Part shown: positions 9,030 to 27,069 of the stretch, one piece after another
Numbering within the stretch: the first letter of the stretch is position 1
How the letters are laid out: each line of letters begins with the position of its first letter
Virus record (IMG/VR): IMGVR_UViG_3300043395_000565
Location: 1 to 28,118 of that record
Length of the DNA: 28,118 nt
DNA from: a virus
Direction: 5' to 3' (one strand)
The notes under the pieces: model-generated
The model's input: only the letters and a program-made list of their open reading frames with translations
The model's database searches: none
Told to the model about the DNA's origin: nothing
Made by a program: the position numbers and the translations under genes

Positions 9030-9030
9030 T

Positions 9031-13158: not shown

Positions 13159-15171
13159 ATGAAAATAGGTTCTTATTCACCCGCTTGTAATACATGGTTT
13201 GACACTCTTGCCGATAAGCAGGCACAAGTAGACAACATCTTATCTGACTTACCTGCTAATAAAAAAGATGAGGCAATGACCTCAATTATAAATTCAATGT
13301 CTAAGCAACCGGGAAAGGCTGGCTTAATAGCATCTGAATTTATTATCAATGGCTATCTTTCTGGCCCAGCAACGCCTGCTGTTAATGCAATTTCAGCGTT
13401 AACACAAATGATTATTCAACCCGTCATTAGAACAGTTGAAGCTTTTATGCCAAGTGCTGCTACAAAAGTTAAAACAGTGGGGCCAGAGGGTACAGCGGTT
13501 TATTCTCAAGCAGAGAAAAAATATGCAGGAGAAGGGCTGGCAATGATTAGGGGCATTATGCAGGGCTTTGGAGAAGCTATGGCTTTTGCCAAATCAGGTT
13601 GGGTTACTGGCAGACCTCTTGATGTTAATATGCACCCTAAAGCATGGGGCATGACTGAAGGACAGTTTAGAAAATTTGTTAACGAGAATTATCTGCCAGA
13701 AGAAAGAGCAGAGATATTGAAGACGCAGCTTTATGACTATGCTCAGAAACAAATTCCCGGTACAGTTGGAGATGCCATTCGTCTTCCAACTAAGGTTGGC
13801 ATCTTTATTGACGAGTTTAATAAAGCCATCTTTAGACGCATGGAATACAATGCATTAGCTTATAGAAAAGCTGCTGACATTGCAAGTAAAACAGGAGAAG
13901 ACTCTAATGCAATTTATAACAAACTAATTGCAGATAGATTCACTGTAGAAAACTGGCAAAGTAAAATAAAAGAAAACCTTGGAGTAACTAAGTTTACAGA
14001 TGTTCAAGCATTTGCTAAAGAAAATGTTTTCCAAGAAAAGCTTACAGGATTTGCAGCAACAATTGCTAATGCACGAGCAGAACATCCTTGGAGTGTGCTC
14101 ATTGTTCCCTTTGTTAAAACCCCTTACAACATCCTTAAAGAAGGCGTAAGCTACATTCCTGGCACTGCTCCACTTATTAAAAAAGAAATTAGAGATTCTG
14201 GTAAGTTTGAGTTTGCTTTAAAAATGCCAGAGCAAAGAAGCAAACTATTAGCTAAACAAGCTATTGGTCTTGGTGCTGCTGTCTACCTAACAAGCCTAGC
14301 AAACCAAGGACTAATCACTGGTTCAGAGCCTAAAGATGGAAGACCTCCTTTTAGTATAAAGGTTGGAGATAGCTGGGTGAGCTATCAAAAGATTGAACCA
14401 TTAGCTACTGTGTTTGGTATGACTGCTGATGCGGTTAAAATTATCAATGACTATCGTGATAATAAAAACCCAGATAAGAATGCTAAAGAATACCTATCAG
14501 CATACGCTGAAGCTATTAAGAATAACATCTTTGAGAAAAGCTTTATGGAAGGATTGTCTAAAGCAATCTTTGCTATGACAGATGCTGAGCGTCACGGTGA
14601 GGCTTTCTTAACTAGCTATGCTAATGCAATTGTACCAGCAATATCTGCAACCACTGCTCGTCTTTCTGACAAGTATGAGCGTGAGTCTACCACTTTCCTT
14701 GAGAGAGCACAAAGCAGAATACCGGGACTAAGAGAGAACCTGCCAATTAAGTATAAGATGACAGGTGGCCCAGAGGAGCCTAGTGTTTCTAATGCTTTAA
14801 TTGGAATTAAAACAGTAACTCCTACATCAGTTGAACAAACTTTGTCTTCACTAAATGTAGACATTGCTCCTTCTCCTAAGAAGCTTAAAGGAGTGGAGCT
14901 AACAACAGAACAATATTCTAGGCTTAAGGAATTGTCTGGAACTTTGATTGCTCAAGAAGTTGAAAGGCTTAAAAATAATCCTAGATTTATGGAGCAGGAC
15001 AAGTATAAAAAAGAAGTGGATATGGATAAAGCTATAAGCCGTGCTAAGAAAACAGCAGGAGTAGCTCTATCAAATGAAATATATAAAACAGACCCTGTGT
15101 TTGCTAAGAAATACTATAACGCACTAATTGAGAAGTATGGCTTACAAGAAATAAAAGGGTATCAGCAATAG
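13159..15171 (+). CDS. Large internal virion protein, C-terminal part of a split gp16-like protein
   Basis: 670 residues. The start ATG follows TAAAGGAATAAA, a ribosome site nearly identical to that of the adaptor gene (5891-5903). It begins MKIGSYSPACNTWFDT, which repeats the end of the gene before it. Helical throughout, it has a conserved-looking core near residues 185-330 (LPTKVGIFIDEFNKAIFRRM, ARAEHPWSVLIVPFVKTPYN) of the kind found in large polyvalent and internal virion proteins, and a hydrophobic stretch near 370-385. The C-terminus is Lys-rich. It is the last gene of the arm; its TAG is followed at once by a palindrome and a terminator. Confidence 0.68.
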   Translation: MKIGSYSPACNTWFDTLADKQAQVDNILSDLPANKKDEAMTSIINSMSKQPGKAGLIASEFIINGYLSGPATPAVNAISALTQMIIQPVIRTVEAFMPSAATKVKTVGPEGTAVYSQAEKKYAGEGLAMIRGIMQGFGEAMAFAKSGWVTGRPLDVNMHPKAWGMTEGQFRKFVNENYLPEERAEILKTQLYDYAQKQIPGTVGDAIRLPTKVGIFIDEFNKAIFRRMEYNALAYRKAADIASKTGEDSNAIYNKLIADRFTVENWQSKIKENLGVTKFTDVQAFAKENVFQEKLTGFAATIANARAEHPWSVLIVPFVKTPYNILKEGVSYIPGTAPLIKKEIRDSGKFEFALKMPEQRSKLLAKQAIGLGAAVYLTSLANQGLITGSEPKDGRPPFSIKVGDSWVSYQKIEPLATVFGMTADAVKIINDYRDNKNPDKNAKEYLSAYAEAIKNNIFEKSFMEGLSKAIFAMTDAERHGEAFLTSYANAIVPAISATTARLSDKYERESTTFLERAQSRIPGLRENLPIKYKMTGGPEEPSVSNALIGIKTVTPTSVEQTLSSLNVDIAPSPKKLKGVELTTEQYSRLKELSGTLIAQEVERLKNNPRFMEQDKYKKEVDMDKAISRAKKTAGVALSNEIYKTDPVFAKKYYNALIEKYGLQEIKGYQQ

Positions 15172-15186
15172 TTACTAGCTAGTAAC
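15171..15186. repeat. Palindrome GTTACTAGCTAGTAAC, copy 1
   Basis: Perfect 16-bp palindrome whose first base is the last base of the preceding gene's TAG stop. It stands 4 nt before the terminator stem between the two convergent arms. It is one of six copies in the window. Confidence 0.9.
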
Positions 15187-15190
15187 TAAA

Positions 15191-15220
15191 AAGGGCTCCT
15201 AAGGAGCCCTTCTTTTTTAT
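15191..15220. terminator. Bidirectional rho-independent terminator between convergent arms
   Basis: AAGGGCTCCT (15191-15200) pairs with AGGAGCCCTT (15202-15211), a strong GC-rich stem with a minimal loop, followed by TCTTTTTT on the + strand. On the - strand the stem is followed by TTTTTAGTT, so it can end transcripts from both sides. Confidence 0.9.
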
Positions 15221-15384
15221 ACATAGAACTCGCCTATGTATATAGATATGAATGGTATTTTGATGATGATGCCTGCATATTCAGCAACAGTTTCCTTTCC
15301 TTCCACTTCAATGACATGAAGAATGTCGTTATTATATTCAATGTCAAAGCCTATTCCTTGACGTAAGTTTAACACAATGCTCAT
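15217..15384 (-). CDS. Small hypothetical protein, last gene of the right arm
   Basis: 55 residues, found by hand translation. It starts MSIVLNLRQGIGFDIEYNND and continues through VIEVEGKETVAEYAG to a hydrophobic end (IIIKIPFISIYIGEFYV). The start ATG follows GAAGGGATAT, a good ribosome site. Beta-strand alternation suggests a small beta protein, faintly like CsrA in its N-terminal half, but CsrA key residues are not convincing. The stop codon lies in the T-run of the terminator. Function unknown. Confidence 0.6.
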   Translation of the reverse strand: MSIVLNLRQGIGFDIEYNNDILHVIEVEGKETVAEYAGIIIKIPFISIYIGEFYV

Positions 15385-15493
15385 ATATCCCTTCTATCAG
15401 GGTTGTTCATGTGGGGTATGTAGGGAGGTACTAGCCCCCTGTTTTACCCCCTGAACTGACCTTGATTTTTTAGCCAAAAAGAAGCACTTTGTC

Positions 15494-17404
15494 CTACCGG
15501 ATAGGGCAAGCACCAGTTGCACACTCATCTTCTAGGCCAATGTTAGCCTCGTCAATCTGAGTGATGAGCTTAGTGGCTTTCACCATATTGTCATATTCCT
15601 CTTTCGTAATTTCCTCCAGAGGCGCTTGCTTGAAACCATGCTCACTATGTAACAAAAACGACAAGCTCTTGTGATTGTTCTTGTAATGTTTCTTGAGATA
15701 TTTCTTAATATCATTAAGCTCTTCCTTCCTGTAGTAGACGGTGCAGCTTACGCTGTTATCACTCCACACTTCTTGAAGCCACTTCACCACCTCTAGCTGG
15801 TCAATGGCTGTCATATCCTTAGCAAGCTTAGCTGTCTCAGGGTGGCTAAATGGGAAACTAACAACAACAGTTGAGTGGTCTTCTGTCCCATCAAAGTTTT
15901 GCTGATATTCCACATGGTAGCCATGATCTTTACAAACCTGCACCAATGAATGGTTGCTTGCAATGCGAATACGCCGAATCATATAACGAGCATAAGCAGG
16001 GTGAGCACCAGGGGTGACACCAGGAAGCAAGCTAAGTGTACCAGAGGGCTTCACTGTTGTCAGCTTAATGCTCTCAGGAAAGCCATGCTGTGCAGAATAG
16101 CTCTTGTCATATTCCCGTAGCTGTTCATACACATCCTTGAGCCAACTCTTCTGTTCCTCTGTTGCTTGCAGCACACCAGTTACACCAATGCCCATCCTCA
16201 TATTCTTGTTAACAATGGCTTCTGTGCTCTTGAGGTGACATTTCAAAGCAAGGCTGTGCTTGTTAATACGATAGAGAAGCCTAGCCACATCAAGCATCTC
16301 TTCCTTGCTCTTGATGTTAGGCAGGAATATTTCAGCAAGGCAGCAGGTTTCCTTATCAGCTAGGCTCTGTTCTGCACAGGGGTTATATCCTTGTACTTCC
16401 GGGTCTGGGTAGTTGGTGTCTCCCAAACGCCCCACCTTTCGAGACAGCTTAAGGTTGATGAGGCCATACGGCTCTCCCTTACCCTCATATCCATCCCAGA
16501 AGAACTCATGCAAATCTCCAATGTCATTACAAACCACGCTGTTGTTGGACATGGCTCTCCATGAGGGGATATTTCCCAAGTCCCATCGTTTAGCAAGCAA
16601 ATATTCCACATCGTCAGCATCTCCAATGGCAATTTGAGCAGAGCGCCTAACATTGCCAGCAACAACAATGGCTCCAATAATGTTCATCACATCAAGACAA
16701 TCAACAGGGCGCAGCTTCTTGCCTGCTCTCTTCTCCAATATCTCACCAATCTTAGAGATGCCCCACACTAAGTCTTCAGGCCCAGAAGCTACACCACCAA
16801 AGCCCTTGATGGGAGCCCCTTTGGAGCGAATAAGCTTAGTGCTATAGGTGAAGGTTTGTCTGCCGCTTTCGTGAGCAAGGAAGGCTGCTTTAAGCGTTTT
16901 ACCGAGGAGCCTCACCCATCCCTCTCTGCTGTCAGGAACAATGAAGTCGGCGTCATCTGTGTCTGAACGAGTTGGTGTTTTAAACTCAGCATTAACAGGA
17001 GGAAGCTTTTCTACGTTAGTTCGCTGAATGTTATAGCCCACTCCTGAGCCCAGCATCAACAAGTCCATAGCCCAAATGAAAGGCTCAACAGGTTTGTCAA
17101 CAACAGTGAAGGCACAGTTTTGCAGGCTAGACAAACCAAGCTTGTCCACTGTGGGAGTACCTAGCTGCCACAAGAAACGTCCAGCAACTGTCCCCTTTAG
17201 TTCCATCAAGTATTTCTTGAGGCGTTTCTGTTCTCCATACGAGAAGCCACAAGACAGTTGATTGTTTGCAGCATTCACCACTCTATCAATTGTATCCTCA
17301 AATTCTTCTGTCGGACTATTGGGAGAAGTTTCGTCTAAGCGGCGTGAATAGGTGCGCTTATATGTAAGGTAGCCAACAGTGCTCCACGGTGTTTCATAGC
17401 TCAT
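15494..17404 (-). CDS. nrdJ: Class II (adenosylcobalamin-dependent) ribonucleotide reductase
   Basis: 636 residues, shorter than the roughly 740-residue monomeric Lactobacillus enzyme. It reduces ribonucleotides to deoxyribonucleotides with a radical generated from coenzyme B12. Visible signatures are the first redox cysteine in LQNC97AF, the radical/Glu motif NPC343AE345Q (residues 341-346), TVKPSGTLSLLPGVTPGAHP with the conserved PSGT loop, and the C-terminal redox pair C628-x4-C633 (ECATGACPIR). No NrdB-like partner is nearby, as expected for class II. It overlaps the small upstream gene by 11 nt and, with ThyX, forms the dNTP supply module. The host or medium must provide B12. Confidence 0.93.
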   Translation of the reverse strand: MSYETPWSTVGYLTYKRTYSRRLDETSPNSPTEEFEDTIDRVVNAANNQLSCGFSYGEQKRLKKYLMELKGTVAGRFLWQLGTPTVDKLGLSSLQNCAFTVVDKPVEPFIWAMDLLMLGSGVGYNIQRTNVEKLPPVNAEFKTPTRSDTDDADFIVPDSREGWVRLLGKTLKAAFLAHESGRQTFTYSTKLIRSKGAPIKGFGGVASGPEDLVWGISKIGEILEKRAGKKLRPVDCLDVMNIIGAIVVAGNVRRSAQIAIGDADDVEYLLAKRWDLGNIPSWRAMSNNSVVCNDIGDLHEFFWDGYEGKGEPYGLINLKLSRKVGRLGDTNYPDPEVQGYNPCAEQSLADKETCCLAEIFLPNIKSKEEMLDVARLLYRINKHSLALKCHLKSTEAIVNKNMRMGIGVTGVLQATEEQKSWLKDVYEQLREYDKSYSAQHGFPESIKLTTVKPSGTLSLLPGVTPGAHPAYARYMIRRIRIASNHSLVQVCKDHGYHVEYQQNFDGTEDHSTVVVSFPFSHPETAKLAKDMTAIDQLEVVKWLQEVWSDNSVSCTVYYRKEELNDIKKYLKKHYKNNHKSLSFLLHSEHGFKQAPLEEITKEEYDNMVKATKLITQIDEANIGLEDECATGACPIR

Positions 17405-17555
17405 CCAGTTCCCTTTCTAAAAAATCAGCTTTTTCTTCTAGCTTATCCATAAACCTATCGACAAGCTCATCTTCATTAACATCTAACAGTTCTAATATTG
17501 TAACACAGTCTTGTCTTTTTAGCAAGTCAGCTATGTCGATAAGGGTGAGAGCCAT
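17394..17555 (-). CDS. Small acidic helical phage protein
   Basis: 53 residues, found by hand translation: MALTLIDIADLLKRQDCVTI, then LELLDVNEDELVDRFMDKLEE and an acidic end. I recognise similar short proteins (IDIADLL ... VTLLELL ... LVDRF) in many podoviruses, without known function. It starts in a TAATG overlap with the metallophosphoesterase after a near-perfect Shine-Dalgarno (AAGGAGG) and overlaps the RNR start by 11 nt, so it probably also couples RNR translation. Confidence 0.75.
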   Translation of the reverse strand: MALTLIDIADLLKRQDCVTILELLDVNEDELVDRFMDKLEEKADFLERELDEL

Positions 17556-18322
17556 TATGCCTCCTTATACTTCTTCTTCAAATATGTCAGGCTTACAGGC
17601 ATCTCATCAAAGGCTCCATCATCCACCTCGTTGAGCATCCATACACCTGACCATGAGCCGTTGGTTTGTGGGGACAGATAGTCTTCATCATGTTGATAAC
17701 AAATACCAGCAAAGAGCCCTGTCATACGCTTCCCATCTGCTCGTTTAGCAAAGGCAATGCCCCTGTCTTGAACGTGCCCCATAACACAACTCATATGCTT
17801 TTTTGTGAGCAACAGAGTAGGGGAGCTAACTGGTCTCCCCATAACCCCAGAAGTAAAGTAGTGACAATAAGCAACGCCATTGATAACAATAGGCTGTAAA
17901 AAAGGATATGTTTCCCATCCAGTTTCTTTAAGCTTGAAATCATTATATCCAATTAGTCCTTCTAGTTTTCTGTCGCTCTCTATAGCCCGTTCAATGCGCT
18001 CCTCGTGATTGCCAATGAGGAACACCATGCGTGGCTTCCATTGCTTGTGCTTATTCTCCTTCAAGCGTTTCTGTTCTGCCTTGATGGGGGCAAGCAAAGC
18101 TTCCATGCCTGCCTTGCCTGCCTCAATGTCTTCCTTGTAGGTGCGTCCTTCAAAGCTCTTCTTGCCTATGTCATAGATGGACAAGGAGGGCATATCCCAA
18201 TGGTCTCCTAGATGGACAATGACATCTGGCTTCTTCTCTGCTGCATACTTGCCCACCCAAGAGAGGTGTTCAAAGCTGTGCCCCGGTTTACATTGTGTGT
18301 CAGGAATGATGAGGTGCTTCAT
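17555..18322 (-). CDS. Calcineurin-like metallophosphoesterase
   Basis: 255 residues. The metal-binding motifs appear in family order: D8-T-Q10 (Q replaces the usual H of DxH), GD40HWD (39-43), GNHEE (104-108), H154 in CHYF, and GH183V (a GHxH variant). Members hydrolyse phosphomono- or diesters; phage members act on nucleic acids, nucleotides or protein phosphates, and the substrate here cannot be told. The gene is coupled to its neighbours by ATGA upstream and TAATG downstream. The missing His in motif I may alter activity. Confidence 0.85.
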   Translation of the reverse strand: MKHLIIPDTQCKPGHSFEHLSWVGKYAAEKKPDVIVHLGDHWDMPSLSIYDIGKKSFEGRTYKEDIEAGKAGMEALLAPIKAEQKRLKENKHKQWKPRMVFLIGNHEERIERAIESDRKLEGLIGYNDFKLKETGWETYPFLQPIVINGVAYCHYFTSGVMGRPVSSPTLLLTKKHMSCVMGHVQDRGIAFAKRADGKRMTGLFAGICYQHDEDYLSPQTNGSWSGVWMLNEVDDGAFDEMPVSLTYLKKKYKEA

Positions 18323-18510
18323 TTCTCAAACACTCCTTTCTTGTCTAAGATGTTATGCACACCAGCATATGTGCAGCCCTCTAGAAAAGCAGCAAAATGT
18401 TCCAGAACTTCTGTCCACGGAATTCCAGAAGGAAGAACAACTGCTAAATCGTTTTGTATTCCTACCTCTTGGTTGATGCGTGTAAATTTCCACATTATTT
18501 TATTTTCCAT
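18319..18510 (-). CDS. Hypothetical small protein
   Basis: 63 residues with ATG after AAAGGAACAT, just downstream of the tRNA gene. It reads MENKIMWKFTRINQEVGIQN, then a mixed hydrophobic core (LAVVLPSGIPWTEVLEHFAAF) and a charged end. The spacing of IPWTEVLEHFAAFLEGCTY suggests a compact alpha/beta fold. It is coupled by ATGA to the metallophosphoesterase. I do not recognise a family. Confidence 0.65.
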   Translation of the reverse strand: MENKIMWKFTRINQEVGIQNDLAVVLPSGIPWTEVLEHFAAFLEGCTYAGVHNILDKKGVFEK

Positions 18511-18522
18511 ATGTTCCTTTCT

Positions 18523-18599
18523 TGGTATGCCCTAGAGGAATTGAACCTCTGACCTACAGCTTAGAAGGCTGTTGCTCTATCCATCTGAGCTAAGGGCAT
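18523..18599 (-). tRNA. tRNA-Arg (anticodon UCU)
   Basis: 77 nt including an encoded CCA end. The acceptor stem is ATGCCCT/AGGGCAT, the D stem GCTC/GAGC, the anticodon stem ACAGC/GCTGT around loop CTTCTAA (anticodon TCT), the variable loop AGGTC, and the T stem AGAGG/CCTCT around TTCAATT. All stems are fully paired, so it should be functional. It reads AGA codons, which the phage uses often for arginine (for example three AGA and one AGG in the first 17 codons of the gene at 5904). It sits inside the right-arm operon between thyX and a small gene, with palindrome copy 2 just 2 bp before its 5' end. Confidence 0.97.
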
Positions 18600-18601
18600 A
18601 A

Positions 18602-18617
18602 GTTACTAGCTAGTAAC
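18602..18617. repeat. Palindrome GTTACTAGCTAGTAAC, copy 2
   Basis: Perfect copy, identical to copy 1. It contains the thyX stop codon (18610-18612 on the - strand) and lies two bases upstream of the tRNA-Arg 5' end. Confidence 0.9.
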
Positions 18618-19239: not shown

Positions 19240-19505
19240 GTTACAAACTCCTTTGCAATGAATGGCTCCTCATATTGATCTGCCAATGCCAGCACAACAG
19301 CACGTTTAAGCTTTGCTTCAATTAGCTCTGCGGCTCCCTTGATGCTGGCTGTCTCCCATGAGAAAGCGTGTTTTGTTAAAAACTCAATGGCTTCCTCTAC
19401 ATTTCTAGCCACTACAGCTTGCAGTCCTCCATACTCTGATGTAGGAAATGGAACCCAATAGCTGGTGAGGTAGACATACCATTGTTCCTTTTCTTTCTTA
19501 GCCAT
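19236..19505 (-). CDS. Hypothetical protein next to thyX
   Basis: 89 residues with a charged start (MAKKEKEQWYVYLTSYW), a mixed alpha/beta middle (LQAVVARNVEEAIEFLTKHA) and an Ala-rich helix (IEAKLKRAVVLALADQY). The VVARNVEEAIEFL segment resembles small ferredoxin-like folds, a weak impression. It overlaps the HNH gene by 8 nt and thyX by TTGA; its own final codons carry the thyX ribosome site. Function unknown. Confidence 0.7.
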   Translation of the reverse strand: MAKKEKEQWYVYLTSYWVPFPTSEYGGLQAVVARNVEEAIEFLTKHAFSWETASIKGAAELIEAKLKRAVVLALADQYEEPFIAKEFVT

Positions 19506-20155: not shown

Positions 20156-20778
20156 AACAATCTCCCATTCTCAAGAGTTCTTTCGTTGCCCAGAGCCTCC
20201 AAGCAAACGGCAAGCATCTCTGGCTCTGTCGTAGCTTTGGCAAGCATCTTCTCTGCTTTTGCTGGCCCCACTCCCTTGATGCCAACAATGTTGTCGCTCC
20301 TGTCTCCCATCAAAATTTGCTTGTAGAAGAAACGAATTCCTTCTGCTTCTGAGACATAGCGTTTTTCTTTCTTCACAAAATTGTAGTGCCATCCTGCCAC
20401 CTGTAAGAAGTCTTTGTCAATTGAAACAATGATGCAATCATCTTTAAGCTCTGTAGCTTTGATGGCAATGCAATCATCTGCTTCCTCTCCATTACTCACT
20501 ATAGCTCCCCATGAGGTTACTAGATAGTTACGCAATAGCTCTAGATGTGCAGGCTTCTCTTGTGTACGGTTGCCTTTGTATGGGGCTGTGACAGCTATCT
20601 CTTTCCGGAAGTTGTCTTTTCCTGTTAGAAAGATTTGCCAGCTATCCAGCCCCAAGTCAACCATCAAGATTTCCTCCAAGAAAGCAGCCATTGTTGTAAT
20701 GGCTGTTCCCTCGGATTCATCCTTACAAGCGAAAGCAATGCGATAGCACATCACATCACCATCGACTAAAGCAATCAT
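20080..20778 (-). CDS. 5'-3' exonuclease (FEN/PIN family, T7 gp6-like)
   Basis: 232 residues. Acidic metal-binding residues are VD6GD8, GEEADD (97-102), SIDKD (119-123) and GDRSDN (158-163), followed by a helix-three-turn-helix IKGVGPAKAEKML (167-179). It would remove RNA primers or resect duplex ends during phage replication and recombination. The last roughly 25 residues are encoded in the overlap with the metallopeptidase gene and are probably not conserved. It is coupled to ssb by ATGA. An imperfect copy of the 16-bp palindrome lies inside the gene at 20516-20531. Confidence 0.92.
   Translation of the reverse strand: MIALVDGDVMCYRIAFACKDESEGTAITTMAAFLEEILMVDLGLDSWQIFLTGKDNFRKEIAVTAPYKGNRTQEKPAHLELLRNYLVTSWGAIVSNGEEADDCIAIKATELKDDCIIVSIDKDFLQVAGWHYNFVKKEKRYVSEAEGIRFFYKQILMGDRSDNIVGIKGVGPAKAEKMLAKATTEPEMLAVCLEALGNERTLENGRLLWLRRQHQQLWEFPQASNLQAVHGV
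20516..20531. repeat. Palindrome copy 3 (imperfect, intragenic)
   Basis: GTTACTAGATAGTTAC, one arm mismatch from the consensus GTTACTA-NN-TAGTAAC. It lies inside the exonuclease gene. Confidence 0.55.
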
Positions 20779-21218: not shown

Positions 21219-21237
21219 TTGTTTCCTTTAAAAAAAT

Positions 21238-21253
21238 GTTACTAAATAGTAAC
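21238..21253. repeat. Palindrome GTTACTAAATAGTAAC, copy 4
   Basis: Both 7-bp arms are perfect. It lies in the only gap between the polymerase-side small gene and ssb, at the predicted start point of the putative ssb promoter, so it may act as an operator. Confidence 0.9.
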
Positions 21254-21258
21254 TACTA

Positions 21259-21453
21259 TTAGTGTAGCATATTTCCACCACTGTTGTCAACATCAGAAGA
21301 CAAAACAACAGCAGTTACATATGAAAATAAACTCACTAAAAACTCGGTGTCAAGAAGCTTGTCTAACACCATTGTCACCTTCCCGTCTTTGACGAAAAGA
21401 TAAACGCTTTGGTCACTTGTGTTAATAAGGTTTAGAAGTTTATCCTCCTCCAT
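21259..21453 (-). CDS. Small hypothetical protein downstream of DNA polymerase
   Basis: 64 residues from ATG 21453, chosen because it overlaps the polymerase stop (TAATG) and has GGAAGGA upstream; a longer reading frame upstream would overlap the polymerase by 55 nt without need. The sequence MEEDKLLNLINTSDQSVYLF, then VKDGKVTMVLDKLLDTEFLV, suggests a helix, two strands and a helix. Function unknown. The putative ssb promoter runs through its 3' end. Confidence 0.65.
   Translation of the reverse strand: MEEDKLLNLINTSDQSVYLFVKDGKVTMVLDKLLDTEFLVSLFSYVTAVVLSSDVDNSGGNMLH
21261..21290 (-). promoter_or_regulatory. Putative sigma70 promoter upstream of ssb
   Basis: Reading the - strand: TTGACA (21290-21285), an 18-bp spacer, TACACT (21266-21261). 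The start is expected near 21254, at the edge of palindrome copy 4. The -35 is perfect and the -10 matches four of six. Confidence 0.45.
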
Positions 21454-23162
21454 TAGTGTGTGTCCTTCCATGTCTTTCCCACCTTGTATTCCCCAGACAA
21501 AGGACACCTTAAATTAAAGATGTCTTTAGTTTCAGCTATGCTTTTCACAGCAAGCTTTCCCACAACATCAGCCCATTCTGGCTTTGTTTCAATCTGCCAT
21601 TCGTCATGGACATTGGCACAAAAGCCAAAGGGAATACGGTGTTTCCTAAGCTGTTGGTCTAGCAGCACTAAGGCTTGCTTCATAACAATCGCCCCTGCGC
21701 CTTGAAGTAGGCTATTAAGTGCTGCGTGTTCGGAGCGTACCCATATCTTTCTACCATCAAGCCCCGGTACATAGCCCTTGCTTGCATACTTGGCAACTTG
21801 AATGCGTAAAGCCTTGAGCGAGGGAGTGCTTTCAAGAAAGGCATGAATAAGTTGCTGTCCCTTCTTAGCATCACCACCAGCAACACTCCCAATCTTAGAT
21901 GGGCCAGCCCCATAGAGGAACGCATAGATGAATGTTTTTGCTTGATCCCTTGTCTGTAGTCCTGCCGCTTTCTGGTTGACAGTGTGTACGTCTGTCCCGT
22001 CTTTCGAGCTGCCTTCTGTAACCGTCTTGACATAGCCTTCATCCTTCATATAATGAGCCAACATCCTAAGCTCTAGCCCAGAAGCGTCAGCACCAACAAG
22101 AACATTCCCCTCATCCACAGTCCAAAGCTCACGACACTCCTTTCCATAGGGGCTCCCTGAGTTGGGAACCTGTGCCATGTTTGGGCTGCTGTGTGTCATG
22201 CGTCCTGTCACAGCACCATTGGTGATGACACTACCATGAACACGCCCATTTACACCCACTTCCTCAAGCCAGCTTCCTACCTGAGCTACACGCTTTTGCA
22301 GCATTAAATATTCAGAGAGCAGCTTAGCCTCTGGAAGAGCAATGTTTTCTAACACCTTCTCATCAACAATGATGGAGCCCTTGTCTGTCTTCTTTGTAAA
22401 CTTAACACCAAGAGAAGCAAGCCTATCAGCAATTTGTTGACGAGAGCCAGGGTTGAAAATAATTTCTTTGTCCTTGAGAGGCTTGCCTGTTTTCTCAGAC
22501 ACTCGCTTCTCAATAATGGGAGGAAACACTTTCTGTAGCTGGCTCTCAATGTCTCCCATCTTTCCTTGTAGCTCAGCAAGCAATCCTTGAGCCTTGGGTA
22601 TATCAAGCCTAAAGCCATGCTCCTTTTGTTTCTGAATAATAATTGCCACCTCATGTTCAAGCTCTATGCTCTTGAGAGAGAAGTCTTTTAACAAACCAAT
22701 GAGGTGTTTGTGCAGATCAACTAACAAAGAAACATCCTGCTCACAATAGGGAAAGAGAAGCTCTAGGTCTGGGGTGTCCCAACAATCTAGGTTACTAGGT
22801 AGTAACCCGTCTTGTGCATACTTGTCAAAGAACACTTGTGGGTAGTCAATCTTTTTGTTCCCAAGCCTCTTCCCCCATGCCTCTAAACTGTGACCTCCCT
22901 CTAAGCTTGGATTGTAAAGCCTTGACAGTATCAATGTATCTATCGCTTTCTTCGCTGAAATCCTCACTCCCCAGCAAGTTCTTAGCACCACTCCATCGAA
23001 TCCGATTAAGTTGTGTCCTATCACTTTGTCTGATTTTTCTACTAATGTAGTTAGTGTACTTGCTTCTGTATGACATACCATTCCATTCTTCTCATCCCAA
23101 GTGTAGCAACACCATATCTTGTCATGTTTTTTGTTTGTCTCGATATCGAGATAGAGGTTCAC
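21453..23162 (-). CDS. DNA polymerase, family A (T7/Pol I type) with 3'-5' exonuclease
   Basis: 569 residues, shorter than T7 gp5 (704). Proofreading domain: D6-I-E8 (LDIET), HNLIGFD56, YCEQD143. Polymerase: TGRMTHSSPNMAQVP (319-333), motif A D359ASGLELRMLAH, motif B R405-DQAK-TFIY413AFLY-G, motif C VH519DE. Tyr 413 occupies the position of E. coli Phe762 (T7 Tyr526), a state associated with lytic phages and low discrimination against dideoxynucleotides. The start is GTG 23162 in a GTGA overlap with the DUF6378-like gene, with GGAG 6 nt upstream. An intact palindrome copy lies inside the gene (22791-22806). Confidence 0.96.
   Translation of the reverse strand: MNLYLDIETNKKHDKIWCCYTWDEKNGMVCHTEASTLTTLVEKSDKVIGHNLIGFDGVVLRTCWGVRISAKKAIDTLILSRLYNPSLEGGHSLEAWGKRLGNKKIDYPQVFFDKYAQDGLLPSNLDCWDTPDLELLFPYCEQDVSLLVDLHKHLIGLLKDFSLKSIELEHEVAIIIQKQKEHGFRLDIPKAQGLLAELQGKMGDIESQLQKVFPPIIEKRVSEKTGKPLKDKEIIFNPGSRQQIADRLASLGVKFTKKTDKGSIIVDEKVLENIALPEAKLLSEYLMLQKRVAQVGSWLEEVGVNGRVHGSVITNGAVTGRMTHSSPNMAQVPNSGSPYGKECRELWTVDEGNVLVGADASGLELRMLAHYMKDEGYVKTVTEGSSKDGTDVHTVNQKAAGLQTRDQAKTFIYAFLYGAGPSKIGSVAGGDAKKGQQLIHAFLESTPSLKALRIQVAKYASKGYVPGLDGRKIWVRSEHAALNSLLQGAGAIVMKQALVLLDQQLRKHRIPFGFCANVHDEWQIETKPEWADVVGKLAVKSIAETKDIFNLRCPLSGEYKVGKTWKDTH
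22027..22054 (+). promoter_or_regulatory. Consensus-like promoter antisense to DNA polymerase (uncertain)
   Basis: On the + strand TTGACA (22027-22032), a 16-bp spacer, TATAAT (22049-22054): all twelve consensus positions, with a slightly short spacer. It points against the replication operon and heads no + strand gene. It may be a chance result of codon choice. Confidence 0.3.
22791..22806. repeat. Palindrome GTTACTAGGTAGTAAC, copy 5 (intragenic)
   Basis: Both 7-bp arms are perfect, and one extra G/C pair (22790, 22807) extends the palindrome. It lies inside the DNA polymerase gene, where codon use must have been adapted to keep it. Confidence 0.9.
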
Positions 23163-23482
23163 TTTTTCTCCAACTGTTTCACCACAAGAGTGGCATACCC
23201 AGAGATGTCATGCCACGAATCGTCATAATAAAAGTCACCAGACAAGATGCGCCCAAGCTTATTGGCAATCATGTGCAAGCTCTCCTGCATGAATGGCTCC
23301 ATCTTATACCAATTCTTGCTGCGTACAAAGACAGTTTTGATGTCTTGTGACACACCTGCTACATCACGATAGTCTCCATATTTCTCAGCCCGTTTCTCTA
23401 ATGTTTCTTCCACATCTGGGTGGTCTTCTTCATTAGCCTTCACTAAGTTGTGCATATATTGTTCCAATAAATAGTTGTCCAT
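23159..23482 (-). CDS. DUF6378-like protein
   Basis: 107 residues. TLEKRAEKYGDYRDVAGVSQ, then a WYKMEPFMQESLHMIANKLG stretch and GDFYYDDSWHDISGYATLV, match the pattern I know as DUF6378 (R--KYGDY--VA ... Q-SLHMIA-KL-RIL-GD ... DSW-DI-GYA). Its helical layout with conserved acidic residues recalls MazG-like nucleotide pyrophosphohydrolases, but no activity is established. It overlaps the polymerase start (GTGA), implying co-translation with polymerase. A perfect -10 hexamer lies just before its ATG. Confidence 0.8.
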   Translation of the reverse strand: MDNYLLEQYMHNLVKANEEDHPDVEETLEKRAEKYGDYRDVAGVSQDIKTVFVRSKNWYKMEPFMQESLHMIANKLGRILSGDFYYDDSWHDISGYATLVVKQLEKK

Positions 23483-23484
23483 AT

Positions 23485-23512
23485 ATTATACCTTCATTGC
23501 TTCAATTGTCAA
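23485..23512 (-). promoter_or_regulatory. Consensus promoter P3 upstream of DUF6378-like gene and DNA polymerase
   Basis: On the - strand TTGACA (23512-23507), a 16-bp spacer, TATAAT (23490-23485). All twelve positions match. The start would fall near 23478, inside the first codons of the next gene, so a transcript would be leaderless or serve only the polymerase downstream. It sits inside the end of the 47-residue gene. No palindrome adjoins it. Confidence 0.45.
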
Positions 23513-23629
23513 TCCAACCCACTCACGCTTGTCTGGGTAATAGCAGGGGCCGTCCTTGCGGTGGACAATCCCTAGCGTAGTCAGGTCGCCACATACGCAC
23601 ATCCAATCAGGGTTGAATTCGTTTGTCAT
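23486..23629 (-). CDS. Small Cys-containing protein
   Basis: 47 residues, found by hand translation: MTNEFNPDWMCVCGDLTTLG, then IVHRKDGPCYYPDKREWVGL and TIEAMKV. CVCG plus a later Cys could bind zinc or form a disulphide. Its ATG overlaps the next gene's TGA (ATGA with the gene at 23626). The EWVGLT segment also occurs in the neighbouring 67-residue protein, and its end VGLTIEAMK resembles that of the 48-residue membrane protein. Function unknown. Confidence 0.65.
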   Translation of the reverse strand: MTNEFNPDWMCVCGDLTTLGIVHRKDGPCYYPDKREWVGLTIEAMKV

Positions 23630-23829
23630 GTGTTCTTCTCCTTGAGTTTGGCTTCGATGTCTCTAGCAAACGCTAGGTCAATAACATTGTCAGCGCCTTC
23701 TGCCCATATTTCCTCATCCGTCAGCCCAACCCATTCATGTTTCTTTGCAGATTCAAATGCTTCTTCAGCGCGTTGGATACGGGCTTGTCGCTTGGCAATA
23801 GCTTCAAATTCTTCGTCTTCTGGTGTCAT
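23626..23829 (-). CDS. Small acidic helical protein with EWVGLT motif
   Basis: 67 residues: MTPEDEEFEAIAKRQARIQR, then AEEAFESAKKHEWVGLTDEE and a helical end. The (K/R)-x-EWVGLTDEE segment is a familiar short motif in small phage proteins of unknown role. It is coupled by ATGA to the genes on both sides. Mostly helical and charged; no enzymatic motif. Confidence 0.7.
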   Translation of the reverse strand: MTPEDEEFEAIAKRQARIQRAEEAFESAKKHEWVGLTDEEIWAEGADNVIDLAFARDIEAKLKEKNT

Positions 23830-24167
23830 TTGCTTGTCCTTTTGTGAATATACGCCAGCAGTTTACGTAGGTAGTCTGCTTCGCTATAGTCCATACAGAT
23901 ATAGTTATCTTGCATGGTACTACTATATGATGGGAAGTACGCAATGTATCCGTTACCTGTGTCTGTGATTTCGCACAGCGTATCAACCCCAGGAGTATAA
24001 CCACCGCCTGCTTTTAGAACATAGCTGTCATCGCTGTCATTATCAATGATGCGCTCAACAATACCATCTTCTTCAAACACCTCACCATTCTCTGCAATCA
24101 AGTCTTTTACCTGCGCCGTTAGCTTGTTAAGCTGATCTAAAAGTCCATCATAAATCTCTGGTGTCAT
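23826..24167 (-). CDS. Hypothetical acidic protein
   Basis: 113 residues. A helical N-terminus (EIYDGLLDQLNKLTAQVKDL) is followed by an Asp/Glu-rich stretch (EDGIVERIIDNDSDDSYVLK), a Gly-rich turn (AGGGYTPGVD) and a C-terminal helix (YSEADYLRKLLAYIHKR). It is coupled by ATGA at both ends. Acidic early phage proteins often act as DNA mimics or inhibitors of host proteins, but that is speculation here. I recognise no family. Confidence 0.65.
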   Translation of the reverse strand: MTPEIYDGLLDQLNKLTAQVKDLIAENGEVFEEDGIVERIIDNDSDDSYVLKAGGGYTPGVDTLCEITDTGNGYIAYFPSYSSTMQDNYICMDYSEADYLRKLLAYIHKRTSK

Positions 24168-24310
24168 TTCATTGCCTCCATCGTGAGTCCAACATTGCCA
24201 ATAGAATAGCCAACAAAAGCAATCCCCAAGCCAATGTTCCCACTACGTATAAGATCAAGAGCAACAACAGCATACACCACTCCTATTGCCGCAATAAGCC
24301 AGCCACTCAT
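24164..24310 (-). CDS. Small two-segment membrane protein
   Basis: 48 residues, found by hand translation: MSGWLIAAIGVVYAVVALDL (first membrane segment), then IRSGNIGLGIAFVGYSIGNV (second) and GLTMEAMK. Small proteins of this shape (GWLIA-IGV-YA-VA-DL ... GLGIAF-GY--GN-GL) occur in other phages. It could help membrane attachment of replication or act in exclusion; no evidence decides. It is coupled by ATGA on both sides. Confidence 0.7.
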   Translation of the reverse strand: MSGWLIAAIGVVYAVVALDLIRSGNIGLGIAFVGYSIGNVGLTMEAMK

Positions 24311-24429
24311 ATTTCTTTTTCCTTTGCTTCTTTCTTTCTGTTCCTATGTTTCCCTGCGTTTCTCTTTGGCCTTGATAACAAGGCAAGAACAACAGGGTTA
24401 CGCCTCTTCTTTTTTTTCTTCTTCGCCAT
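24307..24429 (-). CDS. Small, very basic protein
   Basis: 40 residues, found by hand translation: MAKKKKKKRRNPVVLALLSR, then PKRNAGKHRNRKKEAKEKEI. About half the residues are Lys or Arg, and NPVVLALL is a short hydrophobic core. Its ATGA end is coupled to the membrane protein gene, and its first 23 nt or more lie within the end of the gene at 24398. The start codes for a long lysine run over a purine tract. Such proteins usually bind nucleic acid. Function unknown. Confidence 0.6.
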   Translation of the reverse strand: MAKKKKKKRRNPVVLALLSRPKRNAGKHRNRKKEAKEKEI

Positions 24430-24589
24430 AATTGGGGTGTAGCTTCTCAGCTTCTTTAACGCCATTCATTATCGCAGTGACAATGCCATAGCGTGTAAGT
24501 GCATCAAGCTCTTCCTTAGAAAAATTAAACTGGAGGACAGCACTACCATCCTCATTCTCTTGAATTAAAACCACCTCTGATGTAGTCAT
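24398..24589 (-). CDS. Hypothetical small protein
   Basis: 63 residues: MTTSEVVLIQENEDGSAVLQ, then FNFSKEELDALTRYGIVTAI and an acidic, lysine-rich tail. SAVLQFNFSKEELDALTRYGI looks like a compact strand-helix fold seen in small phage proteins with the FNFS-EE motif. It is coupled by ATGA to the gene before it and overlaps the start of the very basic protein gene by 32 nt. Confidence 0.65.
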   Translation of the reverse strand: MTTSEVVLIQENEDGSAVLQFNFSKEELDALTRYGIVTAIMNGVKEAEKLHPNYGEEEKKEEA

Positions 24590-24810
24590 TCATCTTCTCC
24601 TGTTGAATACCATGACAAAGCAAGAGTTAGTGCCTCTCGCATCTCTTTAATTTGCTTGATGTCTTCCTTCTTGTCTGTAGAAAAGACAGCCACCCACCCT
24701 GGAGTTTTCTTCTTGTGCTGTTCCAAATACATCCCCAAGGTGTGTACGCTATCCTTCAAAGAAGCAGCAACAATTTTAGGAACCTGCTCATCATCTATGT
24801 CAACTAACAT
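24586..24810 (-). CDS. Hypothetical protein
   Basis: 74 residues from ATG 24810, chosen over a TTG at 24837 and two earlier ATGs because GGAG lies 7 nt upstream and the overlap with the previous gene is then only 11 nt. The sequence MLVDIDDEQVPKIVAASLKD, then a helix-rich body with LTLALSWYSTGEDE at the end. DDEQV-KIV--SLK- and AL--AL-WYS are patterns of small helical phage proteins. Function unknown. Confidence 0.65.
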   Translation of the reverse strand: MLVDIDDEQVPKIVAASLKDSVHTLGMYLEQHKKKTPGWVAVFSTDKKEDIKQIKEMREALTLALSWYSTGEDE

Positions 24811-24964
24811 CTTCATCTCCATCAGGTGGGCTATCAAACCCTACAGCATATTCATCTCGTAGCTCGTCCCTCTTCAGTTCAAGCCACTCGTAATAATAAC
24901 ACTCACCAAACTCCCAATTCAATGAGCATTTCTCAGGGAACATACAATTTTTACACTTGCTCAT
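24800..24964 (-). CDS. Small Cys-rich, probably zinc-binding protein
   Basis: 54 residues, found by hand translation: MSKCKNCMFPEKCSLNWEFG, then ECYYYEWLELKRDELRDEYA and an acidic tail. Cys 4, 7, 13 and 22 (CxxC-x5-C-x8-C) could hold one zinc ion or disulphides. ATGA overlap with the end of the primase-helicase gene places it in the same translation unit. Function unknown; a DNA- or protein-binding partner of the replisome is possible. Confidence 0.7.
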   Translation of the reverse strand: MSKCKNCMFPEKCSLNWEFGECYYYEWLELKRDELRDEYAVGFDSPPDGDEDVS

Positions 24965-26574
24965 AGCTTTTCCTCCTCAAGCTCAGACATTCTACCAGTT
25001 TCCCTAGAGTATAACAGAGAACAAGCTGGCCCTGTCAAGCCACTAAACCTGTTCTTTAACACCCTCACCTTGGTGGTGTTACGCTCTGTCTCATCCTCTG
25101 CCTGTCCATTGCGCTCAAGACCAATCACCATGTCACTAAGCTGAGCAATGGCTCCACTTCCCCTAAGCTGGGCAAGGCTAGTGACAGCCCCCTCCTCATG
25201 TCCCTTGCTTTCAGGACGCTTGAGGTGGGAGACAATGATGAGGCTGATGCCAGTGTTCTGCACCAATGTACGCAAGGAAGTCATCACACTATCCAAAGCT
25301 TTTCGCTCATCTCCATTACTCTGGGCTGAAACAACAATTGAAACGTGATCAAGGAACACATAGCCACAACCAAAAGCACGAGCAAACTCTTCAGTGCGAC
25401 TGACAATGTTTTCAATGTTGGTGGAACCAAAATGGTCAAACATATACACACGGTCAGTGCCAAGTGTAGCATCAAAAGCATCTCTCTTTTCCTGTTCTGT
25501 TGCCTCTACATCTGGCAAATGCAAAGGCTTGTTAGCAGCAAGGCTCATCAAGCTCAAGCCAGTTTTACGCACACTCTCCTCAAGGAACATCAAGCCAATG
25601 TTCTCCTCTGTCTTGCACAAGATGTTCCAGATAATTTCCCTCAAGAACTGACTCTTGCCTAGCCCTGAGCCTGCTGTGACAGTGACAAGTTCTCCCTTGC
25701 GTATGCCATAGGTGAGCTTGTTCAGCCCCATGAATGGGTAGGCCACCTCAGCCTTGTCAAGAGGGCGACTAACATCTTCCCACAGGGAGGAGCCAGCAAC
25801 AATGCCATCAGGCATATACCTCTCTGCTGCCCACCAGCGGTCAATGAATTCCTTCTCCTTACCAGCTAAGAGCCAATCACACCCATCCTTAAAGCCCTCA
25901 GTGGGCTTGAACACCTTTGCCTTGGAGCCGAACAAAGCAGCCACCTGAGAGGAAGCTTGCTGTCCGGGCTCATCACTGTCAAAGCAAACCACAATGTTCT
26001 CAAAGCTGTTGAGCCACTCGTAAGCAGCCTTGCAATCTTTGACAGCCCCTGCTGCACCACTCTTGATGGAGACAACAGGCCACTTGCTGCCAAGCATTTG
26101 GAAGACAGCCAGAGCATCATACTCCCCCTCCACAATGGTGACATACTTGCCTCCCTTGGTGAACTTGTTCTGTCCAAACAAGCCTGTCTCTTTCCAATCT
26201 CCCTCAATAAAAAACTTCTTCTCTGCCACCATGCGTTTCTTGACAGCAACAATCTTGCCTTGCTGGTTGTGGTAGGGAAACCACACAGCTTTTGTACCAT
26301 CAGCAACCACCCCAAAGTGGTCACAGGTGGACATTGTTATGCGTCTAGAGCCAATGCTTGGGGTTGGTAGGGCTAAATAAGCCGCAGCAAGGGCATTTAT
26401 AGCCTCTACAGGCGTTTCTTTTTTGGTATGTAAGGGGGTGGTAGCCATGTGGGTGGAAACAGGCGGGGTGTAGGTATCACAAGCAAAGCATTTGGTGCTT
26501 CCATCCTCGTTAAGGGACAGGCCATCTGAGCTCTCACAAGCTGTGCATGGGAGGTGGGTTTTAACAAAAGCCAT
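24961..26574 (-). CDS. Primase-helicase (T7 gp4-like, TOPRIM plus DnaB/RecA-type helicase)
   Basis: 537 residues, close to T7 gp4 (566). Zinc ribbon C10xxC13...C29xxC32; TOPRIM with VE149GEYDALA and FD199SD201EPG; helicase with Walker A AGSGLGKS (301-308), LEES (331-334), Walker B FLD409H, sensor SH450LKRP and the arginine-finger region LRGSGAIAQLSD (470-481). It would unwind DNA 5'-3' and prime the lagging strand with the polymerase encoded nearby. It starts in a TAATG overlap with the gene at 26574-26738, in the same early transcript driven by promoter P2. Confidence 0.96.
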   Translation of the reverse strand: MAFVKTHLPCTACESSDGLSLNEDGSTKCFACDTYTPPVSTHMATTPLHTKKETPVEAINALAAAYLALPTPSIGSRRITMSTCDHFGVVADGTKAVWFPYHNQQGKIVAVKKRMVAEKKFFIEGDWKETGLFGQNKFTKGGKYVTIVEGEYDALAVFQMLGSKWPVVSIKSGAAGAVKDCKAAYEWLNSFENIVVCFDSDEPGQQASSQVAALFGSKAKVFKPTEGFKDGCDWLLAGKEKEFIDRWWAAERYMPDGIVAGSSLWEDVSRPLDKAEVAYPFMGLNKLTYGIRKGELVTVTAGSGLGKSQFLREIIWNILCKTEENIGLMFLEESVRKTGLSLMSLAANKPLHLPDVEATEQEKRDAFDATLGTDRVYMFDHFGSTNIENIVSRTEEFARAFGCGYVFLDHVSIVVSAQSNGDERKALDSVMTSLRTLVQNTGISLIIVSHLKRPESKGHEEGAVTSLAQLRGSGAIAQLSDMVIGLERNGQAEDETERNTTKVRVLKNRFSGLTGPACSLLYSRETGRMSELEEEKL

Positions 26575-26738
26575 TATGTCTCCAGTTCCTCAAACACACC
26601 ATCAACAAGGGCATGGTTGCTCATGCACCAAGCATCATGGAAAAGCTTTAGAAATTCTGCATACCCAATGGCATTAGCCACATCAACAGCATCTCTAATG
26701 GCAAAGTGGACAAACATCTCTTGTTCTGTATCACTCAT
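26574..26738 (-). CDS. Hypothetical small protein before primase-helicase
   Basis: 54 residues from ATG 26738 (a tandem ATG stands at 26741 and another in-frame ATG at 26765); AAGGAG spacing favours 26738. The body MSDTEQEMFVHFAIRDAVDV, then ANAIGYAEFLKLFHDAWCMS, is helical. Its stop overlaps the primase-helicase ATG (TAATG), so it is likely to set the translation of that gene. Function unknown. Confidence 0.65.
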   Translation of the reverse strand: MSDTEQEMFVHFAIRDAVDVANAIGYAEFLKLFHDAWCMSNHALVDGVFEELET

Positions 26739-26913
26739 CATCTTCTCCTTCTTCTCCTTCCTCATGTTTTAAATCATACCTCTCCTTCACTTCAACGCTG
26801 TCCTTAACAAAGGAAAAGCAAGCGTTACACATATCAAGAAACTCATTAGTAGACCAGAGCCTACGGGTAGCTTCAAAGTCTGAAAGCCTTTCATTACAAC
26901 AAACACATCTCAT
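26731..26913 (-). CDS. Zinc-finger-like small protein, first gene after promoter P2
   Basis: 60 residues: MRCVCCNERLSDFEATRRLW, then STNEFLDMCNACFSFVKDSV and a very acidic tail (EEGEEGEDDE). Cys 3, 5 or 6 with C29xxC32 (DMCNAC) form a probable zinc site; C--C---LS-FEATR ... LD-CN-C is a pattern I know from many podoviruses. AAGGAATACAT precedes the ATG. As the first gene after P2 it is probably expressed early and strongly; the acidic tail suggests a protein or DNA-mimic partner. Confidence 0.75.
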   Translation of the reverse strand: MRCVCCNERLSDFEATRRLWSTNEFLDMCNACFSFVKDSVEVKERYDLKHEEGEEGEDDE

Positions 26914-26919
26914 ATGTAT

Positions 26920-26931
26920 TCCTTATATGTA
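26920..26931. promoter_or_regulatory. Operator-like site A' near promoter P2
   Basis: TCCTTATATGTA, two mismatches from the palindrome TACTTATAAGTA. Its centre is 42 bp from site B' (26962-26973). The 12-mer CTTATATGTATT (26922-26933) is identical to 5842-5853 at promoter P1. Confidence 0.45.
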
Positions 26932-26961
26932 TTATTACTATTATAAGCATCTACTCTTATG

Positions 26962-26973
26962 TACTTATAAGTA
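26962..26973. promoter_or_regulatory. Operator-like site B' of promoter P2
   Basis: TACTTATAAGTA, a perfect 12-bp palindrome directly beside the P2 -10 box and covering the expected start point. Its 10-bp core ACTTATAAGT is the same as at P1. Confidence 0.7.
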
Positions 26974-27002
26974 ATTATATCCACTTTTTATCACATTGTC
27001 AA
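26974..27002 (-). promoter_or_regulatory. Perfect sigma70 promoter P2 for the replication arm
   Basis: On the - strand TTGACA (27002-26997), a 17-bp spacer, TATAAT (26979-26974): twelve of twelve consensus positions with ideal spacing. Transcription should start near 26967, about 54 nt before the gene at 26731-26913. It would drive primase-helicase, polymerase and the rest of the arm. Confidence 0.9.
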
Positions 27003-27053
27003 GCATATAATGTAGACAATGAACAACACTAAGAACCACCAGTTGCTCATGCG

Positions 27054-27069
27054 GTTACTCGCTAGTTAC
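27054..27069. repeat. Palindrome copy 6 (imperfect)
   Basis: GTTACTCGCTAGTTAC, two mismatches from the consensus GTTACTA-NN-TAGTAAC. It includes the stop codon (27066-27068, - strand) of the gene upstream of promoter P2. Confidence 0.5.

Follow-up and report, generated by a model that had tools for sequence, protein, structure and literature searches.

A strict palindrome scattered through the replication arm of uncultivated phages suggests stoperator-like control by a candidate regulator of an undescribed family

Among the closest described systems of dispersed phage regulatory sites are the stoperators of the cluster A mycobacteriophages (L5, Bxb1, TipsytheTRex), which two reports describe as asymmetric 13-bp sites whose 20-30 copies per genome follow the direction of transcription and are recognised by a monomeric helix-turn-helix (HTH) repressor, in temperate phages that carry an integrase or parABS (PMC6550527, PMC9283540). 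In phage SPbeta, as set out in the accessible portion of another report, the dispersed 15-bp element SPBRE was found in silico and later shown by chromatin affinity purification sequencing (ChAP-seq) to be the site of MrpR, the master repressor of this temperate phage, which has an unexpected, tyrosine-recombinase fold (PMC10516654). On plasmid RK2, the 16-bp KorB operators lie near and far from promoters and act as silencers, according to the text available (PMC11790492). Here we describe a 16-bp palindrome that occurs six times in a window of 28,118 bases, the whole of IMG/VR virus record IMGVR_UViG_3300043395_000565, which is classed as linear and is probably a fragment. A likeness also exists to the conserved inverted repeats of phiC31, palindromes scattered near early promoters, with the difference that phiC31 is a temperate Streptomyces phage with a known repressor. 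From comparative sequence analysis we propose that the palindromes are probably operators and stoperator-like roadblocks for a dimeric DNA-binding protein that the phage encodes and that controls its own expression; it would belong to an undescribed family, and the product of a gene here called c11 is the leading candidate.

Structural genes on the + strand fill the left part of the window, up to 15171, and the right part holds, on the - strand, ribonucleotide reductase, metallophosphoesterase, tRNA-Arg, ThyX, HNH endonuclease, exonuclease, DNA polymerase and primase-helicase genes; the replication genes of this phage group are T7-type. The original prediction, made from the sequence of the window, had listed six palindromes, and all of its coordinates proved right (Table 1), as did its placement of copies 1, 2 and 6 at stop codons (copy 1 by one base), copy 4 in a gap, copy 3 in the exonuclease gene and copy 5 in the polymerase gene. 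It had called four copies perfect and two mismatched. Four do match GTTACTANNTAGTAAC exactly, one with one mismatch and one with two, but both of the latter fit GTWACTNNNNAGTWAC, the form that describes the motif best and whose exact matches in the window are exactly the same six; copies 3 and 6 are therefore ordinary members of the set rather than degenerate ones. This form derives from the relatives, in which either A or T occupies positions 3 and 14; allowing for this gave first GTWACTANNTAGTWAC and then GTWACTNNNNAGTWAC. The claim that the repeats exceed chance was likewise upheld, with four exact matches to GTTACTANNTAGTAAC against 0.00 expected from 100 dinucleotide shuffles and, when up to three mismatches are allowed, seven against 0.90, a number reached by none of the 100 shuffles. 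The seventh hit, at 8136 in the structural arm, has two mismatches, breaks the GTWACTNNNNAGTWAC consensus and looks like a chance match.

In searches of a viral collection with the polymerase and primase, from which the best 80 loci each were kept, presence of the motif followed relatedness. It was found in 37/37 primase loci at 73% identity or more and in 0/43 at 69% or less (best 80), and in 7/7 polymerase loci at 71% or more and 0/73 at 61% or less (best 80 among the matches listed). A reversed-sequence control, allowing one mismatch to GTWACTANNTAGTWAC, gave zero in every locus listed, and together with the shuffle counts this rules out chance or base composition as the origin of the palindromes. 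An exact-motif scan of the collection returned, among the matches listed, mostly stretches with a single palindrome, which chance could produce in so large a collection, and was not counted as evidence. By primase and polymerase, the cultured phages that come closest are the Pelagibacter phages HTVC115P, HTVC103P and HTVC104P, with 48-50% amino-acid identity, and one uncultured record ranks among these matches. No inverted hexamer was repeated more than twice in HTVC115P or HTVC103P (first 30 kb of each) or in Celeribacter phage P12053L, scans of bacterial genomes with c11 and primase confirmed no relative, and the literature found held no account of such sites in this phage group, which is not proof of their absence from print.

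The original prediction had made its own survival depend on position being kept in relatives, and across the 13 motif-positive contigs compared it was kept. The exonuclease site is exact in 13/13. Its codons read CGT AAC TAY CTA GTW AC(C/T) in all 15 distinct ungapped motif-positive rows (identical and gapped rows were left out of the codon table): arginine is always CGT, leucine always CTA and valine only GTA or GTT, and changes are restricted to the N and W positions of the motif or lie outside it. Motif-negative relatives mostly have other codons and residues at this position. Because the exonuclease codons vary only where the motif is degenerate, selection acts on the DNA. The polymerase site lies inside the gene in 10/13 contigs (seven at offset 347/356, three at 662) and is absent in three, and the codon table shows three motif-positive polymerase rows, two with the site; since this site differs in place or presence between contigs, sites are also gained and lost. 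Judged by these sequence comparisons, the palindrome is a real DNA signal under natural selection in a clade of uncultivated bacterial viruses, hereafter clade A.

The motif is also nearly all-or-none. Among the 119 loci examined, 76 yielded 196 distinct exact contexts against five one-mismatch contexts (seven in the reversed-sequence control, unmerged). Contexts were merged only if the 76 bp around the site were identical, so that near-identical relatives count apart and the 196 are not independent events; loci of different lists, moreover, often share contigs. Ordinary operators grade into weaker copies, as these sites hardly do, and all-or-none matching is typical of enzymes, which raises the question of whether the palindromes are instead recognised by an enzyme (a methylase, nuclease or recombinase) and not by a regulator. 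We consider this very unlikely: twelve specified positions are long for a methylase, the sites flank promoters and fall on stop codons, and no PF00589 integrase was matched in the 13 contigs (control 14/14; the records may be incomplete, and serine integrases were outside the search).

Within clade A the two arms of the motif behave independently. Positions 3 and 14 read AT, AA, TA and TT in 69, 63, 35 and 29 of the 196 sites, where 66, 66, 32 and 32 are expected, and positions 7 and 10 could pair in 87 sites against 89.6 expected. Positions 3 and 14 thus show no arm co-variation, and such independent half-sites would fit the reading of duplex DNA by a symmetric protein dimer. They also bear on the alternative that the palindromes act in transcripts as RNA hairpins, whether for processing, as the original prediction suggested, or for stability or termination. 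Sites are indeed found close to the ends of genes, with a tRNA next to one and a terminator next to another, and in one relative (contig G028) the palindrome itself is predicted as a hairpin within a 103-nt post-promoter stretch with a z of -2.1 for the whole stretch. When natural site variants were folded, however, four of six had no stable structure and the two fully symmetric ones formed only a weak hairpin of -3.4 kcal/mol; compensatory changes between the arms were not found, and an Rfam search of 14900-28118 matched nothing but the tRNA. Since the arms do not co-vary and most variants do not fold, an RNA hairpin is extremely improbable. The G028 stretch (locus L295, 16833-16935, -) is of separate interest, for after a perfect leftward promoter and before the palindrome it has a predicted AAGCUUAUU/AAUAAGCUU hairpin (-17.1 kcal/mol, z -2.1); going by the fold, it may serve the structural arm as a leader or processing element.

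The sites are distributed unevenly along the genome. Seven contigs of 38-42 kb contain 57 sites. The replication arm has 39 of them (0.37 per kb) and the structural arm four (0.02 per kb), and the remaining 14 are found in the 1 kb ahead of c11 (2.0 per kb). Confinement to the right arm, as originally claimed, thus holds for the window but not for its longer relatives. Each of the 13 motif-positive contigs has 4-13 sites, 104 in total. Across the 196 contexts, a strong sigma-70-like promoter has a site no more than 80 bp downstream in 63 cases (11.5 expected) and no more than 80 bp upstream in 42 (11.1 expected), and is overlapped by a site in only one (6.8 expected), the expectations being taken from 1520 random positions. 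Downstream promoter-to-site distances group at 7, 20-24, 28-30, 37-51 and 55-70 bp. By contrast with these promoter-associated copies, sites in the polymerase and exonuclease genes and at the convergent gene ends have promoter scores below the 99th percentile (11.3), the highest, 9.5, being on the opposite strand at the exonuclease site in the window and in the near-identical contig G016.

Gene ends are a further favoured location. In the 13 contigs, 31/104 sites overlap the stop codon of a called open reading frame (ORF), against 3% of random positions, although genes were called by a simple longest-ORF script and some small ORFs in these placement counts may be false calls. In 18 of the overlapping sites the first GTAAC supplies the stop as its TAA, and as the motif contains usable stop triplets the overlap is partly a matter of economy. 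Particular placements recur: a site at the point where the two arms converge, which in the window is site 1, directly ahead of a terminator, is present in 9/13 motif-positive contigs, a site over the stop of the PHROG 7971-like gene also in 9/13, and a site at the end of ThyX in 5/13.

The candidate regulator gene that accompanies the motif is c11, an early gene of about 182-209 codons that heads the replication arm. It is present in 12/13 motif-positive contigs, the only one without it being the window, which is cut before c11, and it is absent from both motif-negative contigs, one of them a 24.6-kb fragment. Eleven c11 proteins used as queries led to 32 loci, and in every one of these an exact site falls no more than 400 bp ahead of the match start, at -15 to -55 in 27/32; two sites 93-107 bp apart are found upstream of c11 in 20/32. 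On visual inspection, many of the near sites follow a promoter-like sequence and precede the ribosome-binding site, and the second site is found across that promoter. Ten of the 32 contigs were outside the motif, polymerase and primase listings, and all ten have the site. The c11 protein combines a conserved basic stretch, TAKxRKSEFK, with an acidic linker and a predicted helical tail, and its structural model has eight helices at modest confidence (predicted local distance difference test, pLDDT, 77.6; five models 52-78). PHROG 4648, a family to which no function is assigned there, gave a weak match (best E 0.004, in 7/11 members). A tblastn search of plasmids with the c11 protein found no match. 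Taking the c11 model for a winged helix, on account of three helices and a hairpin, was rejected: the more confident model of the corresponding protein in a sister clade has no hairpin, and no fold matched.

The same data bear on a different role for the sites, in which a ParB- or KorB-like protein would use them to organise phage DNA (for replication, condensation, segregation or packaging) and any influence on transcription would be secondary. Strict, dispersed 16-bp sites resemble parS as well as the KorB operator introduced above, and c11 has a weak structural match to a pNOB8-type ParB N-domain (5k5a; Z 4.1 over 114 residues, root-mean-square deviation 4.7). That Z is within the stated noise of the tool, however, and PF13614, the sole ParA-type family searched, was matched in 0/13 contigs (control 14/14; contigs may be incomplete), so that the partition site once suggested for the palindrome gains no support from this search. 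The steep gradient in site density and the flanking of promoters point to gene control, and we regard a DNA-organising role as unlikely.

Related clades appear to have a similar arrangement with different palindromes. A blind search for repeated inverted hexamers recovered GTWACT in the motif-positive contigs and, in some motif-negative relatives, other scattered palindromes: GTTAACGNCGTTAAC with spacer variants, GTTTCCANTGGAAAC and TTTGTANNTACAAA. The GTTAAC type was seen in loci L244, L253, L255 and L262, the GTTTCC type in L263, L265, L267 and L280, and the TTTGTA type in L248 and L249. These sister-type loci have 5-10 palindromes each, and the GTTAAC and GTTTCC types have copies inside the primase gene. 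In the GTTAAC clade (clade B), GTTAACNNNGTTAAC was found in 78 exact and four one-mismatch contexts (control 7), a strictness like that of clade A, and the TTTGTA pair, a small sample, gave six exact and one one-mismatch copy of TTTGTANNTACAAA (control 0). As further observations, two GTTAACNNNNGTTAAC sites in L261, at 17046 and 17056, overlap through a common GTTAAC arm, in a contig where 3- and 4-base spacers are mixed. In L268, GTTTCCACAGGAAAT, which is a one-sided form of the palindrome of the GTTTCC clade (clade C), occurs three times, at 282, 967 and 1284, ahead of exact copies.

In clade B the gene at the c11 position encodes 166-183 residues and was found at 22 loci, all of which have at least two GTTAACNNN(N)GTTAAC sites. 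One site lies 81-105 bp after the start of the regulator match in 22/22, and another 100-168 bp before it in at least 18. The model of this protein (pLDDT 87.4) has eight helices in the same order as c11, and a conserved stretch, SVKxLKSxRK, occupies the place of TAKxRKSEFK. Common descent of the clade A and clade B proteins is likely. A GNC spacer is present in 49/49 clade B sites in ten loci whose regulator reads KSNRK and in 0/59 in twelve loci that read KSARK, counts that take in near-duplicate contigs. The clade C counterpart is a positional guess, and neither of the two loci read has an exact site directly ahead of it. When the clade A and B regulators and the clade C positional candidate were searched by tblastn against the phage collection, no match was found.

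Several observations weigh against the proposed reading. No Pfam match above the cut-off, PDB sequence match or significant fold match was obtained for c11, nor a significant fold match for the clade B protein; comparison of the c11 and clade B family profiles was not significant (E 0.24), although it aligned the same conserved stretch, and the c11 sequence profile found nothing below E 0.09 among the proteins of the other clades. Shared ancestry and near-duplicate contigs confound the correlation of regulator and spacer seen in clade B, and could by themselves yield the split. As many as 133/196 sites have no strong promoter within 80 bp upstream. Strictness is not universal, since one-mismatch copies of the clade C palindrome GTTTCCNNNGGAAAC exceed their control (30 exact, five one-mismatch, control 0). 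In the hexamer search G026 and G027 (primase 69%) and 13 further loci had no repeated palindrome, and most loci in a second search likewise had none. The absence of a detected lysogeny gene (PF00589, PF13614) would leave a repressor without an obvious immunity role. Finally, c11 is the first gene of its arm, and the nearby site could therefore be an operon control region bound by another protein.

This last point is the core of a competing explanation, in which a host regulator or a different phage protein binds the sites and c11, as the first gene of the arm, is no more than one of its targets. The lack of a known DNA-binding fold in c11 favours it, and c11 is not alone in tracking the motif, as gene clusters c12, c28 and c29 are also absent, as clusters, from both motif-negative contigs. 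Yet c12 belongs to the GP88 family, and motif-negative G027 also has a GP88 protein (Table 1), which shows that this family does not track the palindromes; in several clades GP88-family (PF17338) genes are found close to the start of the replication arm, whether or not palindromes are present. Moreover, the GTTAAC clade has a diverged gene in the same place beside its own palindromes, and a host protein would not be expected to switch its site between sister phage clades unless their hosts differ. We thus judge another binder unlikely, though worth keeping in mind, and retain c11 as the candidate regulator.

Of the suggestions in the original prediction, the stoperator analogy fits best, and by that analogy the sites may work like those of L5. 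As the available parts of the cluster A reports have it, the two systems share many genome-wide copies, some at promoters and most away from them, with one beside the regulator gene, and a motif that differs between sister groups with diverging regulators (PMC6550527, PMC9283540). Scattered copies with a promoter-associated subset are indeed what we see, together with conservation, an adjacent candidate gene and clade-specific sequences. Unlike the cluster A sites, however, GTWACTNNNNAGTWAC is symmetric and has no orientation, and there are 4-13 copies per contig rather than 20-30 per genome. No PF00589 or PF13614 match was found in the 13 contigs, and c11 gave no HTH match in Pfam, PDB-sequence and fold searches, where the L5 gp71 type has HTH and Stoperator domains. 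Because the asymmetry is lacking, we do not file the sites in the L5 stoperator family. A search for a T7-type RNA polymerase gave 0/13, a result that is not evidence of absence, as no control genome matched either. SPBRE and MrpR offer a close precedent for inference of this kind, the element having been recognised in silico long before its binder; they differ in that SPBRE is described, in the text available, at intergenic regions, where here many sites are inside genes, and in that c11 has no significant fold match (PMC10516654). The RK2 operators share with our sites a length of 16 bp and positions near and far from promoters, and differ, as far as the accessible text goes, in belonging to a plasmid, in lying upstream of promoters and in being bound by a CTP (cytidine triphosphate)-binding clamp of the ParB kind, with c11 having no PDB sequence match (PMC11790492).

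In the mechanism that we propose, a c11 dimer would sit on each site with one subunit per GTWACT half. Bound at promoter-flanking sites it would limit initiation and autoregulate c11, and the paired sites 93-107 bp apart upstream of c11 would permit looping. At sites inside genes or at their ends it would block elongating host RNA polymerase in stoperator fashion. Related clades would follow a comparable plan in which both the palindrome and the protein have diverged. Possible uses include late shut-off of the replication arm, damping of early genes, or a dormant state.

The features of the window are collected in Table 1, with the GP88 genes of relatives. The position of c11 beyond the fragment edge is estimated from the site positions of the near-identical contig G016 (c11 8471-9037, site 8441). 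The tRNA-Arg (TCT) at 18523-18599 (-) has its 5' end 2 bp from site 2, so that this site lies between the ThyX stop and the tRNA. The gene 20775-21218 (-), downstream of site 4, had no PHROG match, and its label as like a single-stranded-DNA-binding protein ('SSB-like') is a guess only. A perfect TTGACA-16-TATAAT sequence at 23485-23512 (-), ahead of the genes leading to the polymerase, has no palindrome nearby; the nearest site downstream is about 680 bp away, inside the polymerase gene.

Table 1. Palindromes and associated features, in window coordinates unless a contig or locus is named
Feature	Position	Strand	Description
Site 1	15171..15186		GTTACTAGCTAGTAAC; first base is the last stop base of the internal-virion-protein gene (13159-15171, +)
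Intrinsic-terminator-like hairpin and T tail	15191..15211	+	Right after site 1
Site 2	18602..18617		GTTACTAGCTAGTAAC; provides the ThyX stop codon (ThyX gene 18610-19239, -)
Site 3	20516..20531		GTTACTAGATAGTTAC; within the exonuclease gene (20080-20778, -); fits the W consensus exactly
Site 4	21238..21253		GTTACTAAATAGTAAC; 7 bp past a promoter-like -10, 19 bp ahead of gene 20775-21218 (-)
Promoter-like TTGACA-18-TACACT, TG ahead of second hexamer	21261..21290	-	Directly upstream of site 4
Site 5	22791..22806		GTTACTAGGTAGTAAC; within the DNA polymerase gene (21453-23162, -)
Perfect TTGACA-17-TATAAT promoter-like sequence	26974..27002	-	Ahead of primase-helicase; site 6 lies 51 bp before
Site 6	27054..27069		GTTACTCGCTAGTTAC; overlaps the stop of the PHROG 7971-like gene (27066-27557, -)
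Fragment edge	28118..28118		c11 and operator cluster expected about 1.4 kb further out, if colinear with G016
GP88 gene, motif-positive cluster c12			PF17338, E 4e-25
GP88 gene, contig G027	11935-12648		PF17338, E 5e-44
GP88 gene, locus L263	1890-2636		PF17338, E 4e-33

Transcription-halting operators in scattered positions have been studied thoroughly in one temperate phage group, and a symmetric version in an uncultivated group, with a candidate regulator unlike any known DNA-binding family in the libraries searched, would broaden the mechanism. Tentatively, and with slightly more doubt than confidence, we suggest that a family of small, all-helical phage DNA-binding regulators, so far confined to uncultivated phages, runs genome-wide sets of strict palindromic stoperators, including some in replication genes, without detected lysogeny genes, and that its recognition has been switched between sister clades (GTWACT, GTTAAC, GTTTCC and TTTGTA half-sites). 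The sister specificities offer a ready test of how a regulator can change together with its full set of sites while the replication genes that contain those sites stay unbroken. If true, the proposal would give a function to a protein family so far matching only hypothetical families, and would provide a natural series of specificity switches, perhaps with immunity-like groups among lytic phages.

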